A DNA stretch of 43,868 nucleotides, from NCBI GenBank assembly GCA_028718185.1, contig JAQUMH010000015.1, positions 1 to 43,868 of the forward strand, in the 5' to 3' direction. The DNA is from Elusimicrobiota bacterium (GTDB taxonomy: Bacteria > Elusimicrobiota > UBA8919). Below are positions 22,513-40,868 of the stretch, piece by piece. The notes beneath the pieces are model-generated. The model saw nothing but the letters and a program-made list of their open reading frames with translations, was not told where the DNA came from and made no database searches. How positions within the stretch are numbered: position 1 is the first letter of the stretch; every line of letters starts with the position of its first letter. Position numbers and translations under genes: made by a program.

Positions 22513-25500
22513 CTATTTAACTAACCCTACTTTACCTGTTTTCTTTTTACCGTTAGCATCTTCTAACTGGTAAACATATACTCCCCTTCCTACTTTGTCA
22601 CCATCATCATTTTTACCGTCCCAAACTATCCATCCAAGATTACCATAATCTATTTCTTTCAACTCGCGGATTAATTCACCATTTACACTGTAAAATTTCA
22701 TTTTGACATTTAACGGCAGGTTTATAACCTTTAACATGCCGTTTATAGCTGTCGTAGGATTATACGGGTTTGGATAAACTTTTACGGTGTTTAAGTCTGT
22801 AGAAACATAACTTCCTAATATACGGTAAGTTGAAAAATGTTTGACGGTTGCAGTTACTGTTTTATTTGTTTTATCTACTGTCTGGACTCCTGATACCAAA
22901 TCCCAATCTGTACCATTCCAGAAGTAAATTCTAAGTCCGTCTTCATCTAACGTTCCTATATCCTCCGCTGTATAAGGTATTTTTATACTTACCGTCCTTG
23001 TAAATATTTGGTTTTGCAGGACAGGTACGGTATTTGTAAAAATTAACTCGCCAAAATCATAACAGATAGGATTCACTGTATTAGCGTATTCCATTGTATT
23101 ACCAACTGCCGGCGGGACACTTGTCGGTATTGCTGCAAGATTCTCGTCACTGGATAGTACTCCGGCCGGTACTACTATCTCTATTCCATTTGTTCCTTTT
23201 ATTGTCCCACCCTTATTGCCGACTAAATTTGCTGCATACATGTCAGTAAACTTTGTTACTATTGTAGCGGTTGTGTCACCGCTTAACTCTATTGTATTTA
23301 TGTTGCTATGGTATGCGATTGAAACATTTTTCTCACCTAAATCCGCTTCTGTTAATGTCGAACTTACAGCATCTAATACTGTACCATTTGAATCTTTTGT
23401 TGTTAGGGTTAGTGTTCCTGCATAATCGGTTGCTATACTGTTTTCATCTATGTTAAATACCTGCAATTTGAACTTCAAACTTGCAGGTGTTGTTATCTCA
23501 TCATAGTAATAAGTATATATTCTGTGTTTTAAATTATATGTCGTAAAACTGTATTGTGCTGATATTGCAAGATTATTAGCAGGATCCCTGCTATAGACTC
23601 TGTAATAATATGTCTTTCCTTTATCTAAATTACTAAGTTCCACACTATGACTGGTTACCGGTGTTGCACTTAATGTAGTTGTACTGCCTAGTGCTGTTGT
23701 AAGTCCATATACTACCTGTGAGTCGGATACCTCATTGGTTGTCCATATTATTACAGCACTAGTTACTGTTACGCCTGCACTCACATTGCTTATTATAGGT
23801 GCATCCGGGTCATTTGCAATTGTTGTAAAAGTAAAATCACCAGTTGTTGTTGGGTTATTACTCATATCCGTTGTCACTACCCTGCAATGATATGTTGTTT
23901 TTTCAGTAAGACCTGTTATTGGTACACTATGGCTGGTTACTCCACCGCTATCTGTTACCGGTGATGCACTGCCATAACCTGTTGTTAAGCCATACTCTAC
24001 TTTACTGGTTGCTGGTTCATTAGTTGTCCATGTCACCACTGCTGAAGTTCCTGTTATACTTATTGTTGCAGTACTACTAACTACCGGAGGAGTTGTATCA
24101 GGGGTTATACTTATTATTTTAAGGCAATCAAGATTACCACAACCGGCTGCTGTGTTTGTTTCCATCACGAATTTCATTATCTGGGGACCTGAAGTAAGTA
24201 CAACATCGGATGAGACTAACAGGTCAACATAAGTTTGATAATCACCCGTTGGTGGTACTCTTGTTGATGCTGTTACAAGATACGGTGTTTCATTATGATT
24301 TCCAAATTCAAAATGTACGGGACCACCATCGACTAACAGCCCACTACCTACTCTTATTAATATTTTATAATCACCAGTATTATTTACATTTACACTGTAT
24401 TCTAACCACTCGCCGGGTTTTGTCCATCCCACATCAAAACCACCACTGGCATTCACTGATGTCTCTATATCTACACTTTCAGTTGTCCTGTATGCATTAC
24501 CGCTATTACCGGGTGATGTATCATTGTATCCTTTTCCTGATGCTGAACCAGAAGCTACTGTATCATAATTTTCAAACTCTATTGTTGTAGAACCTGTTCC
24601 TATTGACCACGGAGTACCTACGGGAACGTTTCCATATGACAGTTGTACTATGGCGGCTGTTATTGTATATAGGACGCTATTTACTGAACTGTCTGTCATT
24701 CCAGCTTTGAATGCCCTGGCTTTTACCGTTGTATTACTGGTCAATGTAAATGGTGCAGAATACTGAGTCGATGTTAATGTCGGGTTATTTCCATCTAATG
24801 TATAATATGTTGTCGCTCCATCGGTTGTACAGCCGAGCGTTACACTATTAACAGATACTTCATAAGTGTCTGCTCCAGGACTAATTGTAGGTATATTAAC
24901 TATATTAGATGTATCTCCACTTATTCTTATTAATTGGATGTAATTAAAATCACCGCCGCCTGTTGTTGCACTGTCATCGAGAACTAGCTTCATTATCTGG
25001 CTTCCCGCTGTCAGTGTAACTGAATTTGCAAGTACTACATCAGTAAAGGTATCATAACTACCTGTTGGTGGTACGCCTGTAGGTGTTGTTAGAAGATATG
25101 GTGTTTGTTTATGTGTTCCAAATTCTATGTGTATAGGACAACCTGTGACTGTCAATCCGCTGCCTGCTCTCAATACTATTTTGTATTGTCCTCCCTCATT
25201 TACATTTATACTATATTCCATCCATTCACCAGTTACTGTCCAACCTACTTTGTATCCGCCACCTATATCGGTTGTTGCAGTAACATCTACATTCTCGCTT
25301 GCTCTGTATGTGTTACCACTATTACCAGATGTTGTATCACTATATGCTTCACCGGAACCACTACCATCTACTACCATATCATAATCTTCTGCCTGTATTG
25401 TTATTGTCCCTGTTCCTATTACCCAGGCTACACCAGCTGGATATGCCTGTTGTATTGCCTGCGTTATTGCTGTTAAACCAACCAAGAGTACGATTGACAT

Positions 25501-25527
25501 CATACAACATCTGGTAATCTTACCCAT
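22513..25527 (-). CDS. Exoprotein C: CBM6-rich secreted protein with FlgD-like tail, no catalytic domain
   Basis: The ATG at 25527 follows GGAGG and begins the signal peptide MGKITRCCMMSIVLLVGLTA; the frame up to 25581 only adds 18 residues. Length is 1004 aa. Order: CBM6 (29-202, IQAEDYD, VTGEWMEYSINV); chitobiase C-terminal-like repeat (208-290); CBM6 (292-470, KPGEWLEYSVNV); two FN3-like domains (472-657); unrecognised beta domain also in A, B and D (658-910); FlgD-like tail (912-1003; YPNPYNP, VWDGKNDDG, GVYVYQLED). It equals the C-terminal third of the other exoproteins fused to a signal peptide, so it may act as a polysaccharide-binding surface protein rather than an enzyme. PorV3 lies 149 nt upstream; a palindromic repeat sits in the gap. 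Confidence 0.9.
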   Translation of the reverse strand: MGKITRCCMMSIVLLVGLTAITQAIQQAYPAGVAWVIGTGTITIQAEDYDMVVDGSGSGEAYSDTTSGNSGNTYRASENVDVTATTDIGGGYKVGWTVTGEWMEYSINVNEGGQYKIVLRAGSGLTVTGCPIHIEFGTHKQTPYLLTTPTGVPPTGSYDTFTDVVLANSVTLTAGSQIMKLVLDDSATTGGGDFNYIQLIRISGDTSNIVNIPTISPGADTYEVSVNSVTLGCTTDGATTYYTLDGNNPTLTSTQYSAPFTLTSNTTVKARAFKAGMTDSSVNSVLYTITAAIVQLSYGNVPVGTPWSIGTGSTTIEFENYDTVASGSASGKGYNDTSPGNSGNAYRTTESVDIETSVNASGGFDVGWTKPGEWLEYSVNVNNTGDYKILIRVGSGLLVDGGPVHFEFGNHNETPYLVTASTRVPPTGDYQTYVDLLVSSDVVLTSGPQIMKFVMETNTAAGCGNLDCLKIISITPDTTPPVVSSTATISITGTSAVVTWTTNEPATSKVEYGLTTGYGSASPVTDSGGVTSHSVPITGLTEKTTYHCRVVTTDMSNNPTTTGDFTFTTIANDPDAPIISNVSAGVTVTSAVIIWTTNEVSDSQVVYGLTTALGSTTTLSATPVTSHSVELSNLDKGKTYYYRVYSRDPANNLAISAQYSFTTYNLKHRIYTYYYDEITTPASLKFKLQVFNIDENSIATDYAGTLTLTTKDSNGTVLDAVSSTLTEADLGEKNVSIAYHSNINTIELSGDTTATIVTKFTDMYAANLVGNKGGTIKGTNGIEIVVPAGVLSSDENLAAIPTSVPPAVGNTMEYANTVNPICYDFGELIFTNTVPVLQNQIFTRTVSIKIPYTAEDIGTLDEDGLRIYFWNGTDWDLVSGVQTVDKTNKTVTATVKHFSTYRILGSYVSTDLNTVKVYPNPYNPTTAINGMLKVINLPLNVKMKFYSVNGELIRELKEIDYGNLGWIVWDGKNDDGDKVGRGVYVYQLEDANGKKKTGKVGLVK

Positions 25528-25589
25528 ACTTTTCCCTCCGGTTCTTCTATATGCTTTATTCCAATTTTGATTTGTTTTCATATCGAAAA

Positions 25590-25663
25590 GTTATAGAGTT
25601 ATAGAGTTTTAGAGTTTGTAGAGTTAAAACCTTATAACCCTACAACCCTATAACTCTATAACG
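25590..25663. repeat. Palindromic TAGAGTT-unit repeat, copy 3
   Basis: GTTATAGAGTTATAGAGTTT plus further TAGAGTT units, then TTATAACCC, CCCTATAAC and CTCTATAACG. Unlike the other copies it lies between a porV gene and its exoprotein rather than after the exoprotein, so a simple terminator role would uncouple PorV3 from exoprotein C. Confidence 0.7.
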
Positions 25664-25676
25664 CTTTTTTCCTTTA

Positions 25677-26624
25677 TCATTTCCCGCCAAACCTTATTCC
25701 AAGCGATATCCTGTGCGTGTCGCCTAAATCTTTTGTCGGAACAAACGCATAATCTATATTAAATGTAGAACTTTCACTATTCATCTTAAAACCACCGCCT
25801 AATGTGTATGTCTCTTCATCATAGCCTATCTTGTATCCTGCTCTTATTCCTACCATCTCGGCTATCATTAACTCCATTCCTATATTCTCTTTTATACTTG
25901 CACTGTCTAATCCATAATTGACATCTGCTGCTACTGTAAGGTTGTTCTCACCTTCAAACGCTGACAGCTTCTTGCCTAATCCCGCTTTTATATTCCCGGG
26001 CATATTGTCACTGCCCACTTTACCGCCTATGTTCTGAACCGCTAATCCTAATTGTAATCCGCCTTTAACAGGAATATACTCTACTCCTAAATCTATTCCA
26101 AAGCCGGATGCACTGTTTGTATCTATCTTCTGGCTTACCATCTTTAAACTACCACCTATATTAATTGTTTCATCTACCTGTCTGCCATAACTTATTGCTC
26201 CGCCCATATCTTTTGCACTATAACTGCCTACACTGCCTATTGTATCATATGCGCCTGTTGCATCTTCTAACGTTTTGTCTATATTTCCATAATTCAAATA
26301 CATTATCTGTAACCCTATTGTTGCACTTTCATTTATCGGGTGCCCGATTGCTAAATACTCGTAGTTTATTCCTTCAAATTGTGATAAATGCATAAATGAT
26401 AGTTCGTTAGCACTGACTGAACCCAATCCTGCCGGGTTCCAATATACGCTATTAATATCTTCTGCTACTGCTACCTGTGCGCCACCCATACCTTCCTGTT
26501 TAGCACCTACACCTACTTTCAAAAATTGCATAGCTGAACTACCTACTCCGGCTTCTACATTGTTTGTACATGTAATACCTACTACCATTACTGCTAACAG
26601 AACTGCATTTAACAGTTTTGACAT
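25677..26624 (-). CDS. PorV/PorQ-like outer-membrane beta-barrel protein 3 (UPF0164 family)
   Basis: A 315-aa protein with a signal peptide (MSKLLNAVLLAVMVVGITC) and the family core SSAMQFLKVGVGAKQEGMGG and VYWNPAGLGSVSANELSFMH. The C-terminal beta strand is ISLGIRFGG. AAAGGAGGG lies 5 nt before the ATG. It is the first gene of locus 3 and precedes exoprotein C. It is clearly homologous to PorV1, 2, 4 and 5 but has its own substitutions (MPGNIKAG, IKENIGMELMIAEMVGIR), so it is not part of the recent PorV1/PorV2 exchange. Expected in the outer membrane as partner of a protein with a C-terminal sorting tail; this follows from the PorV family, not from direct evidence. Confidence 0.88.
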   Translation of the reverse strand: MSKLLNAVLLAVMVVGITCTNNVEAGVGSSAMQFLKVGVGAKQEGMGGAQVAVAEDINSVYWNPAGLGSVSANELSFMHLSQFEGINYEYLAIGHPINESATIGLQIMYLNYGNIDKTLEDATGAYDTIGSVGSYSAKDMGGAISYGRQVDETINIGGSLKMVSQKIDTNSASGFGIDLGVEYIPVKGGLQLGLAVQNIGGKVGSDNMPGNIKAGLGKKLSAFEGENNLTVAADVNYGLDSASIKENIGMELMIAEMVGIRAGYKIGYDEETYTLGGGFKMNSESSTFNIDYAFVPTKDLGDTHRISLGIRFGGK

Positions 26625-26683
26625 GATTACCCTCCTTTTACTACTGTTCTTATGGTCTTTTGGTCTTGAGTTGATGATCCCGA

Positions 26684-26703
26684 TTCGGTGCGGTAGCTCC
26701 GAA
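26684..26703 (-). repeat. CTACYG-loop hairpin in PorV3 leader
   Basis: TTCGGTGCGGTAGCTCCGAA on the plus strand: stem TTCGG/CCGAA around GGTAGC. It belongs to a family of small hairpins with the same loop core and changing stems found in all leaders. Here it lies between terminator and gene. Confidence 0.5.
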
Positions 26704-26712
26704 CTCCGAGCA

Positions 26713-26812
26713 CAAAAAAAAGAAGTATATTAGAAAAATAGTTAATCAGTTAATTAAGTTTTTAACCTAATTCGCTAATCTACTAATTTACTAATCCACT
26801 TCTTTTGTTTTC
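26713..26812 (-). terminator. Terminator-like hairpin in PorV3 leader
   Basis: Minus strand: AAAACAAAAGAAGTGGATTAG, loop near GGTTAAAAACTT, then CTAATATACTTC and TTTTTTTTGTG. Stem ends AAAAGAAG/CTTCTTTT; a T run of eight follows. Confidence 0.6.
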
Positions 26813-26950
26813 GGTAACCTTGCTAGCTTGATAGCCACAAGCGTATAAACCGCTTGTGGTTTGTTGTTTTTCGGTAACCTACTCGGCTTTGACTATCTTA
26901 GCCCTTGGTTTTGCGAACGCATCTCAATTTCATGAGAGTAGCCTTTTCGG
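26808..26950 (-). promoter_or_regulatory. Structured leader RNA 3, GEMM/c-di-GMP-I-like riboswitch candidate
   Basis: The shortest copy. CCGAAAAGGC, P2 CTCTCATGAAATTGAGATGCG, TTCGCAAAACC, GGGCTAAGATAGT, then AAAGCCGAGTAGGTTACCGAA. A compact perfect hairpin follows (CCACAAGCG/CGCTTGTGG), then CTATC (pairing with GATAG) and the second 3' strand AGGTTACCGAAAAC. In this copy the two 3' strands are nearly the same, which makes the internal duplication plain. Confidence 0.55.
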
Positions 26951-26957
26951 AATTCGC

Positions 26958-27014
26958 ACTCGCAGGTCGGAGCTACTGCACCGACCGAGAATGCAACCCC
27001 GCAATAAGCGGGGT
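26958..27014 (-). repeat. Two hairpins upstream of leader RNA 3
   Basis: CCCCGCAATAAGCGGGG and GGTCGGAGCTACTGCACCGACC, the same pair and order as before leader 2. They sit between the promoter and the aptamer-like core. Confidence 0.6.
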
Positions 27015-27097
27015 AAATATTTTTGTTTCCCTCCATAGTTTGTCAAATTCTGAAGATAGTATTTAATGGATATATAAAATTACCAAATTTCCAGCAT

Positions 27098-27126
27098 AAT
27101 ATAACACATTTCTTTTATTTTGTCAA
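27098..27126 (-). promoter_or_regulatory. Promoter of PorV3 leader
   Basis: A perfect -35 TTGACA (27121-27126), 17 bp, TGTGT, and -10 TATATT (27098-27103). One of the two leaders in the window with a consensus -35. Confidence 0.7.
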
Positions 27127-27200
27127 TTATTATTTTGTTTTTTTATATTTTTATTTTTTAAGGTATAAAAAAATAAATAAAAGCCATAGAGTTATTAATT

Positions 27201-27252
27201 TAGGGTTATAGAGGTTAACTATACAAACTCTATAACGTTATTAACTCTATAA
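27201..27252. repeat. Palindromic TAGAGTT-unit repeat, copy 4 (short)
   Basis: TAGGGTTATAGAG on the left, CTCTATAACG and AACTCTATAAC on the right. It is shorter than the other copies. It follows the orphan PorV4, at the place where an exoprotein would have ended if one had been present. Confidence 0.6.
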
Positions 27253-27425
27253 CAATTATTTTTAATTTCTAAATTTTTAAATCTTTTCAATATTTTAATT
27301 TTAATCTCTAATTCACTAATCTACTAATTCTTCTCTTTACAGAAGCAGAGCGGAGTTTATCCCGCATATTTGTTGTGCGGGACTCTGCCGCTACTTTTGA
27401 CTAAGGATTAAGTACGCCTCTGTTT

Positions 27426-28376
27426 CTATTCCTTTGCCCCAAACCTTATACCAAGAGATACTCTGTGTGTGTCACCTAAATCTTTTGTGGGTATGAATGC
27501 ATAATCTATATTGAATGTTGAACTTTCACCGGCTATTTTAAATCCACCTCCTAATGTGTAGCTCTCTTCATCGTAACCTATCTTATAACCTGCCCTTAAA
27601 TATAATAATTCTGCTAACAATAACTCCATTCCGATGTTCTCTTTTATATTTGTACTGTCTAATTCATAAGTAACATCAGTTGCTACTGTTAAATTGTTCT
27701 CACCGTCAAAGACTGATAGCTTCTTTCCTAATCCTGCTTTTATATTACCGGGTAAATTATCACTGCCTACTTTTCCACCTATGTTTTGAACCGCTAACCC
27801 TAATTGTAACCCGCCTTTAGCCGGAATATACTCTACTCCTAAGTCTAAACCAAACCCTGATGCTGTATCGCTGTCTATCTTCTCACTAACCATCTTTAAA
27901 CTGCCACCTATATTTATTGTTTCATCTACCTGTTTGCCGTAGCTTATCGCACCACCCATGTCTTTCGCGCTATAACTGCCTACACTGCCTGCTGTATCAT
28001 AGTTACCATTGGCATCTTCTAATGTCTTGTCTATATTGCCATAATTAAGATACATTATCTGTAATCCTATTGTGGAACTCTCATTTACAGGATGTCCTAT
28101 TGCTAAATATTCGTAATTTATTCCCTCAAAATATGATAAATGCATAAATGAGAGTTCAGTAGCAGTGACTGAACCTAATCCTGCAGGATTCCAATATACG
28201 CTATTGACATCTTCGGCTACTGCTACCTGTGCGCCACCCATACCTTCCTGCTTTGCACCTACGCCCACTCTCAAAAATTGCATAGCTGAACTGCCTACAC
28301 CGGCTTCTACATCAACTACACTTATAAAACCTGTTATCATTACTGCCAATATCACAGAACTTATTAGTTTTTTCAT
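27426..28376 (-). CDS. PorV/PorQ-like outer-membrane beta-barrel protein 4 (UPF0164 family), orphan
   Basis: A 316-aa protein with a signal peptide (MKKLISSVILAVMITGFIS), core SSAMQFLRVGVGAKQEGMGG and VYWNPAGLGSVTATELSFMH, and final strand VSLGIRFGAKE. CAGGGAGG precedes the ATG by 5 nt. It has the same leader and promoter as the other porV genes but no exoprotein behind it: the next minus-strand gene is PorV3 with its own promoter. The spacer after its stop (GCTACTTTTGACTAAGGA, GCCTCTGTTTCTAT) matches the spacer between PorV5 and exoprotein D, so a partner was probably deleted. The reading frame is intact, so it may still serve other cargo. Confidence 0.88.
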   Translation of the reverse strand: MKKLISSVILAVMITGFISVVDVEAGVGSSAMQFLRVGVGAKQEGMGGAQVAVAEDVNSVYWNPAGLGSVTATELSFMHLSYFEGINYEYLAIGHPVNESSTIGLQIMYLNYGNIDKTLEDANGNYDTAGSVGSYSAKDMGGAISYGKQVDETINIGGSLKMVSEKIDSDTASGFGLDLGVEYIPAKGGLQLGLAVQNIGGKVGSDNLPGNIKAGLGKKLSVFDGENNLTVATDVTYELDSTNIKENIGMELLLAELLYLRAGYKIGYDEESYTLGGGFKIAGESSTFNIDYAFIPTKDLGDTHRVSLGIRFGAKE

Positions 28377-28503
28377 ATTATCCTCCCTGATACTGTTCTT
28401 AAGTTCTTGTGTTCTCAGTTGATTATCCCGATTCTTATTTATAAGAGAATTTGTAATTGGGATTATGTGCTCAGTCGGTCCAGTAGGTCCGACTTCCGCG
28501 CAT

Positions 28504-28614: not shown

Positions 28615-28770
28615 GGTAACCTTGCTAGCTTGATAGTAATCCTTTGTATAAATATACAAAGAATATCTTTATTGTCTCACCTTTTGTTTATCGGCAACCT
28701 GTTGGCATTAACTATCTTAGCCCTCGGCTTTGCGAACTCATCAAGGTTTCCCTTGAGCAGCCTTTTCGGA
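28610..28770 (-). promoter_or_regulatory. Structured leader RNA 4, GEMM/c-di-GMP-I-like riboswitch candidate
   Basis: TCCGAAAAGGC, P2 CTCAAGG-GAAA-CCTTGATGAG with a GAAA tetraloop, TTCGCAAAGCC, GAGGGCTAAGATAGT, GCCAACAGGTTGCCGAT. The variable hairpin is TCTTTGTATA/ATACAAAGGA, followed by ACTATC and AGGTTACCGAAAAC. CGCAAAGCC here is the exact c-di-GMP-I consensus; other copies have CGCAAAACC, and both can pair with GGTT. Confidence 0.58.
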
Positions 28771-28810
28771 ATTTTTGCACTCTTAATAATCAATATCTGC
28801 TTCTACTATC

Positions 28811-28839
28811 TATATAACACAATACTGATTTTTTGTCAA
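28811..28839 (-). promoter_or_regulatory. Promoter of PorV4 leader
   Basis: -35 TTGACA (28834-28839), 17 bp, TTGTGT, -10 TATATA (28811-28816). Good match to the shared promoter. Positions 28840-29011 hold AT-rich sequence in which I see no gene. Confidence 0.7.
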
Positions 28840-29146: not shown

Positions 29147-32100
29147 TTATTTAATCAGTCCTATTTTCCCTGTCTTTTTGCTACCGGTAGCGTCTTCTAA
29201 CTGATAAATGTATACTCCTTTACCTACTTTGTCTCCATTATCATTCTTGCCATCCCACTCGAGCCAGCCAAGGTTACCAAAATCTGTCTCTTTGAGTTCA
29301 CGAACTATTTCGCCTGTTACACTAAACAACTTCATAGTACTATTCATTGGTAAATTGATTATCTTCAATTTACCCAGTACCGCTGTCGCCGGATTATACG
29401 GGTTAGGATAGACTTTCACATTACTCATATCAGCAGATACATAACTACCTAATATCCGGTATGTTGAGAAATGTTTGACGGTTGCGGTTATTGTGTTGTT
29501 TGACTTGTCTACTGTCTGGATTCCTGTTGCTAATTCCCAATCTGTTCCGGTCCAGTAGTAGATTCTAAGTCCATCTTCGTTTAATGTTCCTATATCCGCT
29601 GCTGTGTATGGTATTGTTATGTTTACTGCTCTTGTGAATACCTGGTTTTCTAATACAGGCGCATTATTGTTAAATGTTAACTCGCCAAAGTCGTAACATA
29701 TCGGATTCACCGTGTCAACATATTTCATGTTGTTTTTTACTTCCGGTGATGAACTTGTCTTTATAGAAGCAAGATATTTGTTAGCAGACAAGACTCCTGT
29801 AGGGATGAGTATCTTCAGTCCGTTAGCACCCCGTATTGTTCCACCCTGGTAACCTACTAACTTTGCGATATACATATCACTGAAACTTATCACGACCGGC
29901 GCTGTCGTGTCGCCTGTTAGTTCTATCGTATTTATATCACTACGGAACGGTATTGAAACTTCCTTCTCGCCGGAATCTGCCCCAGTCAATGTTGAATCTG
30001 TTGTATCCAGGACACTACTCTTGCTGTTCTTGGTTGTAAGTGTTACTGTACCTGTGTAATCGGTCGCAATACTGTTCTCATCTACATTATATACCTGAAC
30101 CTTGAACTTCAAACTCGCAGCTGCGGATGCTCCTGTCTTGGTTGCAGTTGTTCCGTCATCATAGTAATAGGTATATATTCTGTGCTTTAAGTTATATGTT
30201 TTGAAAATGTATTGTGACGATATCGCAAGATTATTAGATGAGTCACGGCTGTAGACCTTGTAATAATAGGTCTTACCTTTATCTAATGCGCTAATGGAAA
30301 CACTGTGTAACCTTGTTGCTGTCGGATCTAATGTGGTTGTAGTTCCCATCGCAGTTGAAGTTCCGTATGCTACCCGAGAATCTGAATTTTCATCAGTTGT
30401 CCATGTTATTACGGCGCTGTTTTGTGTTACACCGGCTACCACGTTGCTAATCACAGGTGGATAAGGATCATTAGATATCGTTGTAAAACTGTAATCTCCG
30501 GTTGTTATTGTATTACCGTTCATATCAACGGATACCATCCTGTAATGATAGGCTGTGTTTTCAGTAAGGCCACTTAATGTAACACTGTGATTGATCACAC
30601 CAACGGTATCTGTTACCGGTGTTGCACTGCCGTAACTTGTTGTTAATCCATATTCTACTTTACTGGTAGCGAGCTCATTAGTTGTCCATTTTATTACTGC
30701 TGCACTACCGGTTACGTTAGATGGTGTTACCGCACTTACTACCGGAGGTGTTGTGTCTGCACTTAATCTTATTAACTTGATGTAATCAAAATTACCGCAA
30801 TTTGCTGCAGAACCGGATTCCATTACCATCTTTATTATCTGGTTACCCGCTGTAAGCGTCACATTAGAAGAAACCTCTAAATCTGTCCATGTATTCCACC
30901 CGCCCGTATTAGGTACGCTTACTGATGCTGTTACACGATATGGAGTTAAGTTGTGTGGACCAAATTCAATGTGCATAGGACCGGCACCGATAGAACCGGC
31001 GGCTACACTTAGTATTATTTTGTAATCAGCAGTCTCACTCACATTTACACTGTATTCTAACCATTCGCCAGGCATTACAAATCCGATATCATATCCGTTA
31101 CTGGCATTAGTGACTGCCTCTACATCTACTCCTTCAGTTGTCCTGTACGCTCCTCCTTGATTACCTGGAGTTGTATCATAATATGATTCACCATCAGCTA
31201 AACCGGAAGTTACTGTATCGTAATTCTCTACCTCTATCGTTGTTGTTCCTACGCTTAACTGCCATGGATTTCCATTGTTTCCAAATGATGTTTGTGGTGA
31301 AATATTTGTTACTGTATATGCAGCACTATTTACTGAACTGTCAGTCATTGTAGCTTTGAACGCACGAGCCCGGACTGTTGCACTCGCAGTTAATGTAAAT
31401 GGTGCAGAATATAATGTTGACGATGATGTCGGGTCTGCTCCATTTGTCGTGTATCTTATTTCTGCCCCGCTGGTTGCACAGCCTAATGTTACTGTAACAT
31501 AACTTGCATACGACCCTGCACTTGGACTAATTGTCGGTGTCGCTACTGCATTAGGTATATCTGCATTAACTTTTATTAAATTAATGTAGTTAAAATTACC
31601 GTTATTATTGCCTGTTCCTGTATCCATTACTAACTTCATTATCTGGTTACCTGAGTTTAGCGCTATTCCTGTTGAAAGTGTTAAATCTGTCCATGTCTGC
31701 CATCCACCTGTTGCAGGCACGCTTGCTGATGGTGTTATAAGATACGGGACTACATTGTGAGGACCGAATTCAAGGTGTACCGGACTTGCACTCGTGTCTC
31801 CATTTGCTGCTCTTAGTACTATCTTGTATATACCACTTTGATTCACATTTACACTGTATTCTAACCACTCGCCAGGATATATATATCCTATATCATATCC
31901 GCCGCCTATATCAGTGCAATTCTCTGTATCTACTCCTTCAGTTGTCCTGAATGATGCATCACCAGTGTTGGCAACAGTTGTATCATGGTATGCAACACCT
32001 TCACCGGAACCGCTTGTTACTGTGTCGTAATTTTCTGCCTGTATCGTTGTCGTTCCAGTATCTATCAACCACGCTACTCCGCTCGGATATGCCTGTTGGT

Positions 32101-35100
32101 TTGGTGTCGTGCCCGTTACTATATATGCTACGTTATTTACTGAACTGTCGGTCATAGCAGCTTTGAACGCACGCGCTTTTACTGTCGCACTCTGGTTCAA
32201 AGCAAACGGTGCGGAATATAGTGTTGACGATGATGTCGGGTCATTTCCATTTGTTGTATATCTTATTTCCGCCCCGTTGGTTGCACAGCCTAATGTTACT
32301 GTAACAGAATCTGAATATGTTCCTGCTCCGGGGTTAATTGTAGGTGTTGCTACTGCATTAGGTGTCTCAGCACTAACCCTTGTTAACTGGATATAATTAA
32401 AATTACCGCAATGAGGTGCTAAGCCAGCTTCCATTACTATTTTCATTATCTGGTTGCCGGCAGTTAAGGTCACACTGGATGAAACTTCTATATCTGCATA
32501 TGTCTGCCATCCACCTGTTAATGGTACGCTTGTTGAAGGGGTTACACGATATGGTGTTGAATTGTGCTGACCGAATTCAAGATGTATAGGACCGGCAGAA
32601 GTATCGCCAGAGGCTACTCTTAAAACTATTTTATAGTCGCCGCCTTGATTAACATTTACACTATATTCCAACCACTCACCGGGCATTGCATAACCTATAT
32701 CGTACCCATTACCCGTATCAGTGCAATTCTCTACATCTACACCGTCACCTGTTCTGTAAGTTGCTCCACCCTTATTAGCTATTTCTGTATCATGATATGC
32801 CTCGCCCTCAGCAGAACCGCTTGTTACCATATCATAATCTTCTGCCTGTATAGTTGTAGTTCCTGTATCTATTGACCACGATACTCCGCCCGGATATGCC
32901 TGCTGGGGCATAGCAGGACCATTAGTTATTGTTACTACCTGTGCTGTTGTTGTCGTTGTTGCTGCGCTATTATCAGTCGCTGTCGCGGTTATGCTATAAG
33001 TCCCTGTCGGCACAGTATTCCATGTATAACTATACGGCGAACTGGTGTCTTCACCAAGTTTTGTAGTTCCATTGAAAAATTCTACTTTGCTTACTGTTCC
33101 GTCACTGTCGGATGCAGTCGCGTCTATCCGGACTGTCGCAGGCGGATTACTACCATTCGTTATCGCTATTGTGCTTATGCTTACTGTCGGCGGTTGTGAT
33201 GTCAAATTCTTATCTGCTAATATCTCACTGCCGGTTAGCGCTATATTATATATCTTAACTCCATCCATTGCACCGTTGAAAGGTTCTGTTCCTCCACCGT
33301 TAGCACCTAACCTTAACGCAGTGCCAAGTGCTGCGATGTTACCGGTCTGTGCAGAACTGTTACTTTCTACGCCATCTACATATATCTTCATTGTAGCGCC
33401 ATTATATACTCCGGCTATGTGATGCCAGGTAGCATCAACACCTATGTTCTGGGTGGCTGCTACGCTTACTCCACTACCACCTATATCTAACCAGAAACGC
33501 GGAGTTAGCTGTGTTGCACTATTCCAAACTCCATGCAAGGAATATGCAAACCACGGCGAACTATGACTACCATCTACTGCCGGTTTGCCTATAAATATCT
33601 GATTGTCAGTACTAGCGGAACCGATGGCGTCTATTCTAACCCACGCTATCAATGTCATCTGACTGCCATTTATATCTAACGATGTGGAATTAGGGACACT
33701 GACATAATCGTTTGTGCCGTCAAATTTTAATCCGGTACCTACCTTGCCGGCAACCCAGCAAGTGGCAGTATCCATATTGGTTAATGTTCCATTGTTATTA
33801 TAACCCGATGTATCACTCGCTGTTGAACTGCCTGATGTGCCTTCCATATCCCATTTCCCTACAGGAAGAGTAGGCTGGCCTGTGTTTTTGACACTTATAG
33901 TAACTTGGGCACTGCCTGTTAATCCAATATTGTCTGTTACTACCGCTCTTATATTAAAATCGCCTGATGGAACACTATTCCATGTGTAGCTATACGGCGA
34001 ACTGGTGTCTTCGCCAAGTTTTGTTGTGCCATTGTAAAATTCTACTTTTGCAACAGAAACATCATCAACTGCCGTTGCTTCTATCAATATATTAGAACCT
34101 TGGTCAAACTGCTGACCATTTGTTGGTTTAGTAATTACTACTACAGGATTGCCACCACCACCGCCAAAGGTATTATTATTACGCAATATGTACATCAAAC
34201 CGCCGGTTGTAGAAAAGAAATCATCCCATGTAATGCTTACTATGTCTAAATCGCCATCGCCGTCTAAATCAGACAGGTATGCTGAATTATGACTTTCTTT
34301 CCCTGCTGATATTATATGTTGTGTAAAACTTGGTGTAGCACTCCCGTCGTTTTCCCATATTGCTGTCTCCTTGGCACCTTTATGCTCACCGGTTACTACA
34401 TCTTTGTCGCCATCAAAATCCATATCGGCTACATCCAGCGAATTAGTTGACTGCTGTTTTACTATCTGTGTTGAAGCTCCCCATAATGTCTTGGGATCTG
34501 CAGGGCACTTAAACCAATAAGTCCGGCTTTCCGCACGAAGTGGATTTGCACCATCCCATATTTCATCTGTCAGTATCATGTCAAGCCGGCCGTCACCATT
34601 CAAATCTGCCAATTGGACCCGGTCAGGTCCATCAGCGCTTGTTACGTTATTAATCGGGGTTGCGTCACCTATCTTGTGGACTGCCCAGTTACCTTGTCCG
34701 GCAACACCGGGATTTTCATACCATACTACTGTTTTGTTATCACCCAACACTCCTACTATATCTAAATCGCCATCTTTGTCTATATCGCCTACTGCTATTC
34801 CTTGATTGTTACTACTATTGCTTACACTATTGCTTATCTGCGTAACAGGCCAATTGCCGTTTTGAGGACTTACTAACGGTATCTGGATGTAATACAATTT
34901 TCCGCTACTGGCACCATCGCCGGGATAAGGTAAATCACCAGTACACACTATCTCTTCCCTGCCACCGGGAACTATTTGTGCCATTCTCATTCCCTGTGAT
35001 TGCGAATGTAGAGTCGGAGGTATAACTGCAACTTTTGTAGCTGTCCAATCTGCTGTTGTATCTCCTGAACCGGTTTTCTCTAACCAATACACACCGGGAT

Positions 35101-38100
35101 TAGGAGTATATGCTGCTGTAAGTCCAAAACCTATTACATCAGGATATGCATCGCCATCTACATCGGTTACCAAACTGGCATCTACATTTACAGGGAATGT
35201 TGTTCTTGTCCATGTCCCGGTCATATCACCGCCAGGGTTTTTGTAGCTATATTTTCCTGATACTAAATCTTTATAGCCGTCATTATTCAAATCCACAGCT
35301 GCTAATCCAAACCATTCATACCAACTACCATATACTGCACGAGTTGTGTCTAACTCTTTATATGTCCAATCCGTTAATCCTCTTTTTCCACCACCGGTTT
35401 GTATCCATACTGCTACTTCGTTGTCAACATTACCAGGGTCGGAATAACTCTTCTGTAATATGTCAAGACGGCCATCTCCATTAAAATCGCCCAATGCATC
35501 TTCGTGGTTGTTTAGTCCTGTTGCTAGTATGGTTGGTGTAAATGCAGGACTTGCTGCACCGTCATTCTTGTATATCGTCATTCTTGCAGCAGGGTAGCTA
35601 TTAGCACCAACACGGCTCATCTCTGCTATAAATATATCATTATCGCCATCTGTATCTAAATCACCTATTTTTAAACTATGTGCCTGGATTACATTACTAT
35701 CTATTATATGTTTTGTCCATGTAGTTGCTGCAGCATTTGTAGATTCATACCATGCAGCAAAACCGGTGAAATCGCCCGCTGAAAAAGCCACTTCAGGTCT
35801 GCCGCCTTTTATTATCTGTCCTACAGCGCATTTGCCTCTTACTGCACTTTCGGCTGGCTCTATTGAATTAAATGTATATGTCGTTCCGCTTACATGCTTG
35901 AACCATCCGCCACCGCCGACTATATCTACTTTGCCGTCTAAATCTATATCGGCAACTGCCATTCCTTCAGCTTCAGGCGCACTTGTTTTTGTATATATTG
36001 TAGCAGGAGCCGGCCATACTGTAGTACGAGTTTTTACGTCTGCGGGTACTTTCCATAAATATAATGTTGTTACTCCAGTCCCATATTGACGTCCCCACGC
36101 TGCCAGTTCTGCAACACCATCGTTGTCAAAATCGCCAAAACATGCATCATGCCAGGTTACTGTTCCTGTGTTCTTTATTAAATGTTTTGTCCATCTGGTT
36201 GCTGTTCCAACTGCTTGGGGACCCGGGTTCTCCCACCAAAAACCCTGAACCTCGTTCCAATCACCCATATTCACTATGTCCAAATCTCCATCATTGTCTA
36301 TATCATAAGGTTGACTAAAACAACCTAGTTTTAATACGTCAGGGTCTATACTTTTTTGGTCCCAGTTATTTCCATTTTTCTTGTACCATACTAATGCGGG
36401 CGCTTCCCCTCTTTTCATAATAACAAAATCGCTCAAACCATCATTATCTACATCTAATACTACACTATCTACATATTCAGAACCTGTCGTGCCTGGTAAA
36501 GATAAATATCCATCTTTACTTGAATATTTCGTAAAGCCAACAGGTGAAGCTGAAGGTGTTATTGTATATGCTGCTGTATTTTCATAACTGTCGTCACTGC
36601 CTGATATTACTGCTGCTGCTCTTAACGTTCCTGATGTTGTTATTGCTGCTACAAGAGGCGAACTGCCGGAAGTAGCTGTTCCACTGGTCAATGGAGGGGT
36701 GTTATCTTTCGTATATTTTATAGTTGCTCCACTTGTCCCACAAGTTATTATTACTAATTGTGTGCCTGAATAAGTGCCTGCCGGTAAATTAAACTGTGGT
36801 GTCGCCACTTTGATTGGTCCTGAAGAACTACCGGGTGTTCCTATAGTTTCTGTCAGATCCCGCCATGCTGATTCTATTGTGTTTTTTGTTGTTGTCAAAT
36901 CACGGCTGTCTGCAAATCCTATTGTATAGTATGCAGGAACAACAGGATTTAAAGATGAAGTTGTACCAGTTCTGCCAAATCCGAATACTGTCATGTTATT
37001 TTCCATCTGATAATATGAATCATTTGCTGTATCATCCTGATGGTTAATCAAATATATACTCCTGTTTATTGTACCATCTGCAAAATATACCCACTCCGGT
37101 GCCGGGATATCGCCGTTTAATATATTAGTTGAAGGATATGACCCGCAAAGTTGCGGGCTTGTATCGTTTGACCTGTAGAAATAATCTTGTGTGCCGGTTA
37201 CATCTAAATTTCCGCCAGGGGTGCCTTCATATAAGAACCAGTATGCACTGTTCTTTTTTGTTACTGTCATCCTTGCATATTTAGGGAATATTTCCCAGGT
37301 ACATGACCATAAACCATCAAGACTATCTGTCTTATATTTAATCTTTATTGGACCCTGATTTAATATACTGCTGCTACTATTTACAAATCCAGGGTGAAAA
37401 TAAGAAGCGGGATATACCATGTTAGGTATTCCGCGATAATTACCCGCTGAACCGCCCGTAGCATGATAACCTAACCAGTCGTTGTTTTGAGTGTCGACCA
37501 TACTGGAAAAACCACCGCCTTGCTTGTGATAATAATAGGTCGCATTAACTGTCTCTATTTTGTAACTTGACTGTCCCTCGTCATCTACATTATCTGTTAA
37601 TGTTACCTGCTTTGTAAAATTAACTTTTGTTATTGTTGGATCTACATCAAAAAATATCCTGAAATATCTTGTTGCACTGGCATTTGTTGTCCCACTCATC
37701 ATAAGTGTTACTGTGCCTATTGCATTGTTTGAAGCATTATATGTAGAATCTTCGTCAAACTGAAATACTACACTGTCATTTATTACTGTTGTACCTGTGC
37801 TGTCTGTCTCTCTCACTCTTAAAGATTGGTCATTCAAACTGCCGCCAACGCCAAGAGTTGTAAGATACTGTGTAAAATTAACTGCTACTTCTACCGGTTT
37901 ATCATATCTTGCATAACTACCAACTGCAACTGTTACCGGCACAAAATAAATAGGGTCACCAGTAGTAGGAGCTGTTATTGTAAAGTTTGCTGTTACCACA
38001 TTACTATCCAAATTTCCCGATTTAGTTGCTATTGCTTTTAAAGTAGTGTCGCTAGATAATGTTAGTGGACCGGAATATACAGTGCCGTTTGTGGATGATG

Positions 38101-39547
38101 GGTCACTGCCATTGGTTGTATACTTTATTATTGCTCCACCGGTTGCACAAGTAATACTTACTGTCTGGGCACTGCTATATGTTCCCCCATTTGGATTTAT
38201 TGCCGGATCTGCCACCGGTAACATTCCACCGGTATTATATTGTACAAATAAAACAGGTCCCGGCCAAATTATCTCCGGTCCGTGAGTCCATGCAGTATTA
38301 CTTGGATGATAAGCAGTTACTTTAAATTCTTTTGTTCCACTTGTTATAAGACTTGTTGGAACTGTTATATTACTATAACCATAATCGTGATCTGTTGAAG
38401 TTGGAAATGAAGTCGCTATTTCAGTTCCTGCTAATGTTACTGACTGAGTTAAACCACCTTCTGCACCATTCCATGTAACAACTGACATTCTTGCACCGGT
38501 GATTGTTAATGCGTTTGATGGGATTACAATACTGCAAGATTTTGAACTAGGACTAGCACTAGCTGTTACTGAAAAACCTTGTGGTACATTGGTCGGTTTA
38601 TACATCTTAACTGAAGTGGTAGTGCGTGCAAGGGTTATACCTGCTACTTCAGGTGTTGCATAACACATCCCGTCATTGCCTGCTATCACTGCCATAAACT
38701 TAATTGATGATGCTGCCTGGTCAGGTACCCAAGTTGTATCCCATGTCTTAGTATATGGTGATGATGTAACTGTTCCTATGTGTCCTACCAAAGCTCCATT
38801 ACGCACCACATACCTGTAATGCCATTGTGAATAAATGCCATTACCATCCTCGTCAAAATCATCATAATATCCTATAAAATCTACCCGGTTTATTCCACCG
38901 GTATATGTATTTACTGCGGCAGTTATTGCAGGATTATCATTTATTGTTGAACTGGCGGTTGGTGAGGTTATACTTCCTGTCGGGTGGGTCTTAGTTGCAT
39001 CATAATATATTCTTAATTTTAATCCGTAGTATGCCCATTGTCCCCAATTAAAACTACCGCAGGATTGGGGTCCAGCGGTAAATTCTATCGTGTTAGTTCC
39101 ACTTGTTAACTGACCAATCGGTATAGTAACTACAGGATATCTAAAACTAAGATAACATTCAGGACTTGATATGTCTGTATTTTCCGGTACCGGTATCCAT
39201 GAATTGTTATTTACTTTGAATTGTTTGCCGGTAGTACCTATGTGACCACCCCACATCTCTACTACTATTTCTGCTCTCGTTGCTCCTGCTAAATCAAGTC
39301 CGCTAAAAGTTTGGACGTAATTTGGGAGAAAATCCTGGGGTGCATCATAGGGTAATGGACCATCCGTATAACTGGGATTAGGATCTGTTACTCTCCACCA
39401 CGCATTACTATAATTTTTTGCCGGTGGTGTACTCCAAATATATTTTTCCTTGAATATGTCGCCTGGTCCAATTGCCGATTGCGATATTGCACTTAACCCT
39501 ATAATTACGACTGCAAATAGCATACACCATCTGATAATTTTACCCAT
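29147..39547 (-). CDS. Giant exoprotein D: FG-GAP/LamG/CBM6 secreted protein with FlgD-like tail
   Basis: Start ATG 39547 after GGAGG, beginning MGKIIRWCMLF; the frame to 39646 adds 33 residues ahead of the signal peptide. Length is 3466 aa. Order: signal peptide; N-terminal beta region as in A and B (25-440); chitobiase-type repeat (444-527); unrecognised domain as in A and B (532-900); chitobiase-type repeat (909-997); FG-GAP/VCBS beta-propeller (1005-1802) with about ten calcium-type motifs such as DLDTDGDND and DLNGDGRLD; Ig (1800-1886); LamG-like lectin domain (1893-2114); Ig (2116-2209); CBM6, chitobiase repeat, CBM6, chitobiase repeat, CBM6 (2214-2927); two FN3-like domains (2929-3114); unrecognised beta domain (3114-3370); FlgD-like tail (3372-3465). 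No hydrolase barrel is seen: the propeller takes its place. Likely a surface polysaccharide-binding protein, perhaps a lyase if the shared unknown domain is catalytic. Confidence 0.9.
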   Translation of the reverse strand: MGKIIRWCMLFAVVIIGLSAISQSAIGPGDIFKEKYIWSTPPAKNYSNAWWRVTDPNPSYTDGPLPYDAPQDFLPNYVQTFSGLDLAGATRAEIVVEMWGGHIGTTGKQFKVNNNSWIPVPENTDISSPECYLSFRYPVVTIPIGQLTSGTNTIEFTAGPQSCGSFNWGQWAYYGLKLRIYYDATKTHPTGSITSPTASSTINDNPAITAAVNTYTGGINRVDFIGYYDDFDEDGNGIYSQWHYRYVVRNGALVGHIGTVTSSPYTKTWDTTWVPDQAASSIKFMAVIAGNDGMCYATPEVAGITLARTTTSVKMYKPTNVPQGFSVTASASPSSKSCSIVIPSNALTITGARMSVVTWNGAEGGLTQSVTLAGTEIATSFPTSTDHDYGYSNITVPTSLITSGTKEFKVTAYHPSNTAWTHGPEIIWPGPVLFVQYNTGGMLPVADPAINPNGGTYSSAQTVSITCATGGAIIKYTTNGSDPSSTNGTVYSGPLTLSSDTTLKAIATKSGNLDSNVVTANFTITAPTTGDPIYFVPVTVAVGSYARYDKPVEVAVNFTQYLTTLGVGGSLNDQSLRVRETDSTGTTVINDSVVFQFDEDSTYNASNNAIGTVTLMMSGTTNASATRYFRIFFDVDPTITKVNFTKQVTLTDNVDDEGQSSYKIETVNATYYYHKQGGGFSSMVDTQNNDWLGYHATGGSAGNYRGIPNMVYPASYFHPGFVNSSSSILNQGPIKIKYKTDSLDGLWSCTWEIFPKYARMTVTKKNSAYWFLYEGTPGGNLDVTGTQDYFYRSNDTSPQLCGSYPSTNILNGDIPAPEWVYFADGTINRSIYLINHQDDTANDSYYQMENNMTVFGFGRTGTTSSLNPVVPAYYTIGFADSRDLTTTKNTIESAWRDLTETIGTPGSSSGPIKVATPQFNLPAGTYSGTQLVIITCGTSGATIKYTKDNTPPLTSGTATSGSSPLVAAITTSGTLRAAAVISGSDDSYENTAAYTITPSASPVGFTKYSSKDGYLSLPGTTGSEYVDSVVLDVDNDGLSDFVIMKRGEAPALVWYKKNGNNWDQKSIDPDVLKLGCFSQPYDIDNDGDLDIVNMGDWNEVQGFWWENPGPQAVGTATRWTKHLIKNTGTVTWHDACFGDFDNDGVAELAAWGRQYGTGVTTLYLWKVPADVKTRTTVWPAPATIYTKTSAPEAEGMAVADIDLDGKVDIVGGGGWFKHVSGTTYTFNSIEPAESAVRGKCAVGQIIKGGRPEVAFSAGDFTGFAAWYESTNAAATTWTKHIIDSNVIQAHSLKIGDLDTDGDNDIFIAEMSRVGANSYPAARMTIYKNDGAASPAFTPTILATGLNNHEDALGDFNGDGRLDILQKSYSDPGNVDNEVAVWIQTGGGKRGLTDWTYKELDTTRAVYGSWYEWFGLAAVDLNNDGYKDLVSGKYSYKNPGGDMTGTWTRTTFPVNVDASLVTDVDGDAYPDVIGFGLTAAYTPNPGVYWLEKTGSGDTTADWTATKVAVIPPTLHSQSQGMRMAQIVPGGREEIVCTGDLPYPGDGASSGKLYYIQIPLVSPQNGNWPVTQISNSVSNSSNNQGIAVGDIDKDGDLDIVGVLGDNKTVVWYENPGVAGQGNWAVHKIGDATPINNVTSADGPDRVQLADLNGDGRLDMILTDEIWDGANPLRAESRTYWFKCPADPKTLWGASTQIVKQQSTNSLDVADMDFDGDKDVVTGEHKGAKETAIWENDGSATPSFTQHIISAGKESHNSAYLSDLDGDGDLDIVSITWDDFFSTTGGLMYILRNNNTFGGGGGNPVVVITKPTNGQQFDQGSNILIEATAVDDVSVAKVEFYNGTTKLGEDTSSPYSYTWNSVPSGDFNIRAVVTDNIGLTGSAQVTISVKNTGQPTLPVGKWDMEGTSGSSTASDTSGYNNNGTLTNMDTATCWVAGKVGTGLKFDGTNDYVSVPNSTSLDINGSQMTLIAWVRIDAIGSASTDNQIFIGKPAVDGSHSSPWFAYSLHGVWNSATQLTPRFWLDIGGSGVSVAATQNIGVDATWHHIAGVYNGATMKIYVDGVESNSSAQTGNIAALGTALRLGANGGGTEPFNGAMDGVKIYNIALTGSEILADKNLTSQPPTVSISTIAITNGSNPPATVRIDATASDSDGTVSKVEFFNGTTKLGEDTSSPYSYTWNTVPTGTYSITATATDNSAATTTTTAQVVTITNGPAMPQQAYPGGVSWSIDTGTTTIQAEDYDMVTSGSAEGEAYHDTEIANKGGATYRTGDGVDVENCTDTGNGYDIGYAMPGEWLEYSVNVNQGGDYKIVLRVASGDTSAGPIHLEFGQHNSTPYRVTPSTSVPLTGGWQTYADIEVSSSVTLTAGNQIMKIVMEAGLAPHCGNFNYIQLTRVSAETPNAVATPTINPGAGTYSDSVTVTLGCATNGAEIRYTTNGNDPTSSSTLYSAPFALNQSATVKARAFKAAMTDSSVNNVAYIVTGTTPNQQAYPSGVAWLIDTGTTTIQAENYDTVTSGSGEGVAYHDTTVANTGDASFRTTEGVDTENCTDIGGGYDIGYIYPGEWLEYSVNVNQSGIYKIVLRAANGDTSASPVHLEFGPHNVVPYLITPSASVPATGGWQTWTDLTLSTGIALNSGNQIMKLVMDTGTGNNNGNFNYINLIKVNADIPNAVATPTISPSAGSYASYVTVTLGCATSGAEIRYTTNGADPTSSSTLYSAPFTLTASATVRARAFKATMTDSSVNSAAYTVTNISPQTSFGNNGNPWQLSVGTTTIEVENYDTVTSGLADGESYYDTTPGNQGGAYRTTEGVDVEAVTNASNGYDIGFVMPGEWLEYSVNVSETADYKIILSVAAGSIGAGPMHIEFGPHNLTPYRVTASVSVPNTGGWNTWTDLEVSSNVTLTAGNQIIKMVMESGSAANCGNFDYIKLIRLSADTTPPVVSAVTPSNVTGSAAVIKWTTNELATSKVEYGLTTSYGSATPVTDTVGVINHSVTLSGLTENTAYHYRMVSVDMNGNTITTGDYSFTTISNDPYPPVISNVVAGVTQNSAVITWTTDENSDSRVAYGTSTAMGTTTTLDPTATRLHSVSISALDKGKTYYYKVYSRDSSNNLAISSQYIFKTYNLKHRIYTYYYDDGTTATKTGASAAASLKFKVQVYNVDENSIATDYTGTVTLTTKNSKSSVLDTTDSTLTGADSGEKEVSIPFRSDINTIELTGDTTAPVVISFSDMYIAKLVGYQGGTIRGANGLKILIPTGVLSANKYLASIKTSSSPEVKNNMKYVDTVNPICYDFGELTFNNNAPVLENQVFTRAVNITIPYTAADIGTLNEDGLRIYYWTGTDWELATGIQTVDKSNNTITATVKHFSTYRILGSYVSADMSNVKVYPNPYNPATAVLGKLKIINLPMNSTMKLFSVTGEIVRELKETDFGNLGWLEWDGKNDNGDKVGKGVYIYQLEDATGSKKTGKIGLIK

Positions 39548-39687
39548 ACTTTTACCTCCAGTTTCCTTTAAATTCGTTCTTGCGTTCTTAAGTTCTAATG
39601 TTCTCATATTATTTACTTTTTTAATTGTGTTAATTTTATTTAACATCTTATCATTTATTGTTTAATTTTTCAATTTTTTTTACGGAA

Positions 39688-39767
39688 GCAGAGCTTTGCT
39701 CTGCTGCTACTTTTGACTAAGGACTAAAGACCAAGGACTACGCCCGCCACTAAACCATCGGGCGGGC
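39688..39767. repeat. Two hairpins between PorV5 and exoprotein D
   Basis: GCAGAGC/GCTCTGC (39688-39704) and GCCCGCC/GGCGGGC (39742-39767) lie in the 243-nt spacer between PorV5 and exoprotein D, with AGGACTAAAGACCAAGGACT between them. The equivalent spacers of loci 2 and 4 have comparable hairpins, so hairpins between partner genes are the rule here. No promoter is evident. Confidence 0.5.
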
Positions 39768-39790
39768 AGGAACTTCGGACGCCTCTGTTT

Positions 39791-40744
39791 CTATTCTTTA
39801 CCGCCCCCAAACCTTATACCTAACGATATCCTGTGCGTATCGCCTAAATCTTTTGTAGGAACAAATGCGTAATCTATATTGAATGTTGAACTTTCACCAT
39901 TTATCTTAAACCCGCCGCCTAATGTGTATGTCTCTTCATCATAGCCGAGCTTGTAGCCTGCACGGATTCCTATCATCTCGGCTATTACTAACTCCATACC
40001 AATATTCTCTTTTGTTGTTGCACTGTCTAATCCATAATTGACATCAGCTGCTATTGTTAGATTGTTCTCACCTTCAAATGCTGATAGCTTCTTACCTAAT
40101 CCAGCTTTTATATTGCCGGGTAAGCTGTCACTACCTACTTTACTGCCTATGTTCTGGACTGCTAACCCTAATTGTATTCCGCCTTTTACTGGAACATACT
40201 CTACTCCTAAATCTATTCCAAATCCTGTTGTGTTGTCACTATCTATCTTCTGGCTCGCCATCTTCAAACTGCCACCTACATTTATTGTCTCATCTACCTG
40301 CTTACCGTAACTTATTGCGCCACCTATGTCTTTGGCACCGAAAGTGCCTACACTGCCTACTGTATCATATGCTCCAGCTGCATCTTCTAATGTTTTGTCT
40401 ATATTGCCATAATTAAGGTACATTATCTGTAAGCCTATTGTGGAACTCTCATTTATTGGATGCCCGATTGCTAAATACTCGTAACTTATTCCTTCAAAAT
40501 ATGATAAATGCATAAAGGAGAATTCGGTTGCACTTACTGAACCTAACCCTGCGGGATTCCAATATACGCTATTGACGTCTTCAGCTACTGCTACCTGTGC
40601 GCCGCCCATTCCTTCCTGCTTGGCACCTACTCCCACTTTCAAAAACTGCATAGCTGAACTGCCAACGCCGGCTTGTACATTGCTTGTACATATAATAGGT
40701 ACAACCAGGACTGCCAACATTACTGCACTTAACATCTTGCGCAT
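39791..40744 (-). CDS. PorV/PorQ-like outer-membrane beta-barrel protein 5 (UPF0164 family)
   Basis: A 317-aa protein from ATG 40744, which follows AAAGGGGG. The frame is open to 40801, but those 19 codons are the translated 5' leader: the same DNA is non-coding before PorV1. Signal peptide MRKMLSAVMLAVLVVPIIC; core SSAMQFLKVGVGAKQEGMGG and VYWNPAGLGSVSATEFSFMH; last strand ISLGIRFGGGKE. Family role as for the other PorV copies. It heads locus 5 with exoprotein D. The leader is nearly the same as that of PorV1, while the protein is closer to PorV3 in several places, so leaders and genes have partly separate histories. Confidence 0.88.
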   Translation of the reverse strand: MRKMLSAVMLAVLVVPIICTSNVQAGVGSSAMQFLKVGVGAKQEGMGGAQVAVAEDVNSVYWNPAGLGSVSATEFSFMHLSYFEGISYEYLAIGHPINESSTIGLQIMYLNYGNIDKTLEDAAGAYDTVGSVGTFGAKDIGGAISYGKQVDETINVGGSLKMASQKIDSDNTTGFGIDLGVEYVPVKGGIQLGLAVQNIGSKVGSDSLPGNIKAGLGKKLSAFEGENNLTIAADVNYGLDSATTKENIGMELVIAEMIGIRAGYKLGYDEETYTLGGGFKINGESSTFNIDYAFVPTKDLGDTHRISLGIRFGGGKE

Positions 40745-40796
40745 ATTAACCCCCTTTACTGCTGTTCTTATGTTCTTGAGTTCTTGAGTTGATGAT

Positions 40797-40868
40797 CCCA
40801 ATTTTTATTTATAACTGAATATGTGATTGAGATTGTTTTATTGGTCTCCGGTAGGGGACTCAATAAAA
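40797..40868 (-). repeat. Hairpin pair in the 5' untranslated region of PorV5
   Basis: Single unit of the element duplicated before PorV1: a hairpin near CCCAATTTTTATTTATAACT, then TTTTATTG/CAATAAAA around GTCTCCGGTAGGGGAC. It lies between terminator and start codon. Confidence 0.6.

Follow-up and report, generated by a model that had tools for sequence, protein, structure and literature searches.

The porV4 gene of this Elusimicrobiota draft genome is an intact PorV/PorQ-family gene without an exoprotein gene downstream, and we consider it reasonably probable that it is the remnant of a leader-porV-exoprotein cassette from which the exoprotein was deleted as a unit, leaving a functional shuttle that serves exoproteins encoded elsewhere. 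The window, which is the whole stretch of DNA analysed, comprises 43,868 nucleotides and is one contig (C15) taken in full from a draft of 3.03 Mb in 27 contigs. Its minus strand carries five porV genes, all belonging to one clade, together with four exoprotein genes that are complete. PorVs were numbered from left to right in a sequence-only reading of the same DNA, in which "PorV5/exoprotein D" refers to 39791-40801 and 29147-39646. Positions elsewhere in the genome are given as contig:position. The features of the locus are as follows:

27426-28376, minus strand: porV4, an intact PorV/PorQ-family gene of 316 aa with a signal-peptide-like N-terminus (ORF list, NCBIfam, PDB profile match)
28688-28774, minus strand: leader RNA of porV4, similar to a c-di-GMP-I riboswitch in diverged form (Rfam score 27.2 bits; 109.8 bits with R1, a model built from the 15 leaders of the clade)
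28811-28839, minus strand: putative sigma-70 promoter of porV4, TTGACA, 17 nt, TATATA, read by hand
27257-27425, minus strand: spacer of the PorV-to-exoprotein type, with a GCAGAG hairpin and an A+T-rich tail
27187-27249, no strand assigned: TAGAGTT palindrome, the proposed far edge of a lost gene
27098-27126, minus strand: promoter-like site upstream of the next porV, TTGACA, 17 nt, TATATT, 11/12 in the pattern scan
26868-26955, minus strand: leader RNA belonging to the next porV, with an R1 score of 93.9 bits, overlapping an Rfam c-di-GMP-I match at 26810-26953 (31.2 bits)
25677-26624, minus strand: next porV, which has its own exoprotein
22513-25581, minus strand: exoprotein of the next porV, 1022 aa, with a CBM6 domain and a CTD of the same class as those of the other clade partners
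29147-39646, minus strand: exoprotein D, 3499 aa, partner of the porV at 39791-40801 and upstream neighbour of porV4
39791-40801, minus strand: porV of exoprotein D, followed by a spacer (39647-39790)

PorV4 is a member of the PorV/PorQ family NF033709 of NCBIfam (180.7 bits, cut-off 90) and falls below the cut-off of the T9SS PorV equivalog NF033710 (69 bits, cut-off 250). A profile of the 15 paralogues in its clade matched PorV in the PDB (6h3i chain F) with an E-value of 2.1e-9 over profile positions 3-234, while AlphaFold models of the five PorVs in the window were too poor for use (mean pLDDT 26.7). The sequence-only reading had described PorV4 as having an intact frame, leader and promoter. 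The first two descriptions were borne out, the leader being present at all 15 PorVs of the clade. The promoter can be read by hand (28839-28811) but was not listed by the pattern scan, which returned 13 promoter-like sites against 9.5 expected.

A protein search of the genome gave 50 PorV-like matches, 15 of which form one clade with 79-95% DNA identity. In 40 relatives, none of them of the same genus, PorVs were at most 40% identical at the amino acid level among the matches listed, so that the expansion of the clade appears, as far as the genomes compared show, to be private to this lineage. Immediately downstream of twelve of the 15 lies an ORF of 1022-3499 aa, and the CTDs of these ORFs all belong to a single class. 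Two more have their exoprotein in altered form or position: porV C4:20535 is followed by a broken exoprotein and porV C9:100312 by a 203-aa ORF and then the exoprotein. The broken exoprotein (C4:11321-20451, minus strand) consists of two ORFs, of 1913 aa and 1106 aa, the second of which carries the CTD. The spacers from these 14 PorVs to the start of the first ORF measure 67-436 bp. PorV4 is the sole member of the clade without a downstream exoprotein and thus lies outside the definition of the porV-exoprotein cassette in this genome. Nor does it resemble the other common arrangement: among the 35 PorV-like matches outside the clade, 16 have a CTD-bearing ORF upstream on the same strand at 62-396 bp (7 others are PorV-first, like the clade), whereas exoprotein D lies 770 bp upstream of PorV4, beyond the leader of PorV4 itself. 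An AraC-type regulator with a cupin domain is encoded at 41694-42476 on the plus strand of the window, divergent from the porV at 39791, and ORFs of 257-263 aa are likewise placed at 5 other PorVs of the clade.

The absence of the exoprotein, noted in the sequence-only reading, was confirmed. No ORF of at least 100 aa lies between PorV4 and the next porV. When this gap was searched by tblastn with 15 proteins, namely the products of the 14 ORFs downstream of the other PorVs in the clade and of the second ORF at C9:91919, chance matches alone were obtained (best E-value 0.12).

The segment directly downstream of PorV4 is of the kind that separates a porV from its exoprotein. Its best match in the genome, at 84% identity over the 169 bp of 27257-27425 (E = 3.4e-44), is C9:79227-79389, the complete spacer between porV C9:79390 and its exoprotein, and the alignment reaches the first ATG of the exoprotein ORF. 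When the query was widened by 75 bp of PorV coding sequence, the identity was 88% over 170 bp. The spacer of PorV4 had previously been matched to that of exoprotein D. The two do share the GCAGAG hairpin, TTTTGACTAAGGA and GCCTCTGTTT in the same order, but the aligned match is 29 bp long (93%, E = 3.0e-5), the C9 spacer is the better counterpart, and an 80% match at 39779-39868 consists for the most part of PorV coding sequence. Full-length similarity is limited to one of the 14 other spacers, the rest sharing pieces with that of PorV4, which speaks against the deletion reading discussed below. The PorV4 spacer ends in an A+T-rich tail, as found before exoproteins, without the ribosome-binding site and the MGK start. 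The GCAGAG hairpin is a dispersed element that is present also between genes other than PorV-exoprotein pairs.

Beyond the spacer follows the TAGAGTT palindrome, which has a predicted folding energy of -27.1 kcal/mol (z = -6.96) and a T-rich stretch next to it on the minus strand. We found 30 two-armed palindromes of this type in 833 kb of the genome and scored 27, leaving out two at a region edge and one inside an ORF. Twenty-two of these are located at most 30 bp past the stop codon of an ORF that is 120 aa or longer, while the others are 82, 158, 159, 176 (PorV4) and 333 bp from a stop; a 67-aa ORF carrying an exoprotein CTD, too short for the 120-aa limit, ends 12 bp before the one at 333 bp. 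The palindrome had been taken to end the exoprotein, which holds after exoproteins B and D (11 and 8 bp past their stops), but it also occurs after other genes and inside a spacer at 25594-25658. It is a marker of gene ends, not of exoproteins as such. The palindrome that best matches the one at PorV4, among 40 of 211 candidates, is located 11 bp after the exoprotein stop at C11:33173. Rfam matches to let-7 and mir-196 on TAGAGTT palindromes were below the cut-offs and were taken as chance.

A palindrome with no gene end next to it is the main support for a lost gene at this locus, and it is probable that a gene, most likely the exoprotein, was removed between spacer and palindrome. The clean deletion proposed in the sequence-only reading is thus the best-supported reading, if an unproven one: PorV4 is the lone member of 15 without an exoprotein, its spacer is homologous to a complete porV-exoprotein spacer, and its palindrome is displaced from any stop codon. 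The deleted segment would have spanned the interval between the A+T-rich end of the spacer and, approximately, the stop codon preceding the palindrome. Counting against it, both markers are dispersed repeats, for 4 of the 26 other scorable palindromes, too, the distance to the stop of an ORF of this size (120 aa or longer) exceeds 30 bp, and the lost gene is itself unseen, no coding remnant having been found in the gap by tblastn. The comparison loci from contigs of relatives are two distant ones with 29-32% identity.

In a rival history, PorV4 was never paired here, and porV, leader and 3' spacer were copied alone between exoprotein D and the next cassette, with the palindrome as an independent insertion. 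Such copying would fit a genome in which porVs multiply, with 15 in one clade, as well as the dispersed repeats and the lack of an exoprotein remnant. We nevertheless regard it as unlikely, as the copied piece must stop just before the start of the exoprotein, the post-stop palindrome must arrive without its gene, and PorV4 is no recent copy, being at most 83% identical in DNA to the closest of the 14 other PorVs of the clade.

If an exoprotein was lost recently, PorV4 could also be a dying and functionless relic. With its partner absent, PorV4 has a long terminal branch (0.138 in a FastTree tree) and, with 5, more private silent changes than any other of the 15. However, the PorVs of two paired cassettes, C9_66 and C9_100, have longer branches (0.147 and 0.160), the frame and leader of PorV4 are intact, and its amino acid changes are within the range of paired PorVs: the 6 private changes at otherwise invariant sites are the joint highest number with paired C9_66, and the mean pairwise dN/dS value is 0.101 as compared to 0.075-0.107 for the other 14, although these are pairwise averages at high dS (about 0.8) that mostly cover the time before any loss. 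There is no sign of excess decay in PorV4, the date of a loss not being given by dN/dS, and we find the relic explanation distinctly improbable.

An assembly error that skipped the exoprotein and mis-joined the ends, conceivable in a draft with many repeated cassettes, is very improbable since the longest exact repeat of 26601-28400 is 50 bases (833 kb of the 3.03 Mb compared), shorter than the 127-base overlap of contig ends, and the window contains no N. That overlap is the last 127 bases of the window (43742-43868), which are identical to the end of contig C9 and probably reflect a k=127 graph break in a repeat.

If PorV4 is what a deletion left behind, it would, like its paralogues, be expressed under this type of leader and would act as an outer-membrane carrier, docking on an SprA-like translocon, binding the CTDs of its cargo and now carrying exoproteins encoded elsewhere. 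An SprA-like protein is encoded in the genome by a 1726-aa ORF on C12, with 34 bits against PF14349 (cut-off 27) and 119.8 bits against TIGR04189 (E = 6.3e-35, cut-off 200). A phmmer search of this protein against PDB sequences gave no match at E 0.01. No match to the sortase PorU exceeded the cut-off among the 51 of 83 candidates scored, and 50 matches covered the C-terminal part alone. The profile match to 6h3i and the SprA-like protein liken the system to the T9SS of Flavobacterium johnsoniae, from which it differs in that the scores with NF033710 and TIGR04189 are below the cut-offs and no PorU candidate among those scored is above. In that species, PorV docks at the lateral opening of SprA and its loops bind the cargo CTD (PMC10994853), and all type A CTDs are recognised by one PorV (PMC12618676), as compared to the 50 PorV-like matches found here, many of them beside a CTD-bearing gene.

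Potential cargo for a free shuttle is present. The sequence-only reading had advised looking for exoprotein genes that lack a porV, and exoproteins of the same CTD class stand without one at several places in the genome, four of them, at C3:29313, C4:22968, C4:5253 and C9:44491, headed by the same leader; the strict picture of porV-exoprotein pairs in that reading is too narrow. A search with the N-terminus of exoprotein D revealed no PorV-less exoprotein with this N-terminus in the genome; the hits were 10 exoproteins led by a PorV, exoprotein D among them, plus a single chance match (E = 0.88), and the search was not exhaustive in that it recovered 10 of the 14 partners. Full-length CTD matches numbered 36, with 74-100% identity, and the one partner tested against NCBIfam, the exoprotein at 22513-25581, scored 19 bits with TIGR04183 (cut-off 23). 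A CTD-like match with 36% identity (E = 1.5e-5) is also located at C3:141251-141520 on the plus strand, inside an open frame of 18,319 aa that would be a giant gene, if real.

Among the 14 paired exoproteins, CTD similarity averages 80%, with a minimum of 70%. In F. johnsoniae, in experiments on type B cargo with SprF-like shuttles, an exchange of shuttles succeeded for a non-cognate CTD of 68% identity and failed for a pair at 43%; in the same study, an orphan SprF-like shuttle was the most enriched partner of three orphan cargoes (PMC12618676). Since the paired CTDs exceed the similarity at which this exchange worked, PorV4 probably works as a shuttle in trans, by analogy with F. johnsoniae, and we infer service to distant exoproteins because of the close similarity among CTDs of this class and the presence of several exoproteins that are not accompanied by a PorV. 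The distances between PorVs and those between their partner CTDs were weakly correlated (Mantel r = 0.30, 300 of 5000 permutations as high, 14 pairs), from which neither pairing specificity nor its absence follows. PorV4 resembles the F. johnsoniae orphan Fjoh_1677 (PMC12618676) in being a shuttle that is not beside a cargo gene in a genome with shuttle-less cargo. The two differ in that Fjoh_1677 belongs to the PorP/SprF family and was tested by pull-down, while PorV4 is of the PorV/PorQ family and its role is deduced from sequence.

The leader may connect these scattered genes. R1 matched 34 sites in the genome: 15 upstream of the PorVs of the clade, 7 upstream of other PorVs, 4 upstream of PorV-less CTD exoproteins and 8 upstream of other or broken genes or at contig edges. 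A diverged leader at C2:96422-96512 on the minus strand (69.3 bits with R1) precedes a 430-aa ORF outside the PorV matches. In the variable stem, 98.9% of the cells were paired and 19 cells had changed on both sides, as compared to 5.0 in shuffles of these related sequences, a comparison that does not represent a probability. The PorV4 leader aligned over the whole c-di-GMP-I riboswitch model RF01051, with a score under the Rfam gathering cut-off of 35 bits; 10 of the 15 clade loci matched the model at E-values of at most 0.5, all below the cut-off (26.3-31.2 bits), and the leaders here differ from it by an insertion before GCAAA. R1 leaders were present in 3 of 21 genomes, this one included. 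In the other two, which are from the same family (G002 and G005), R1 gave 15 matches, and all 4 of the leaders submitted to Rfam passed the cut-off with 41.6-52.4 bits. The leaders in G005 precede several long ORFs, some with CTD-like ends as judged by eye, and one precedes a PorV-like ORF that runs off its contig. This resemblance suggests c-di-GMP as a candidate ligand. In the portion of the literature covered by our search, no link was found between a c-di-GMP riboswitch and PorV-type display; the one paper with both "PorV" and "riboswitch", once each in the text available, concerns translation in F. johnsoniae (PMC6847099).

We tentatively propose, as a possibility for which we hold less confidence than for the deletion, that a regulon of the c-di-GMP-I riboswitch type operates a type IX-like surface display system with many shuttles, in part unlinked from their cargo, with PorV4 as a free shuttle for the leader-headed exoproteins that lack a PorV. 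The shared leader would then suggest a role for c-di-GMP in tuning how large carbohydrate-binding proteins are displayed. If this is true, a single genome would hold paired cassettes, shuttle-less cargo and a cargo-less shuttle, and would be a natural setting in which to ask whether T9SS-like shuttles serve their neighbours exclusively or are shared.
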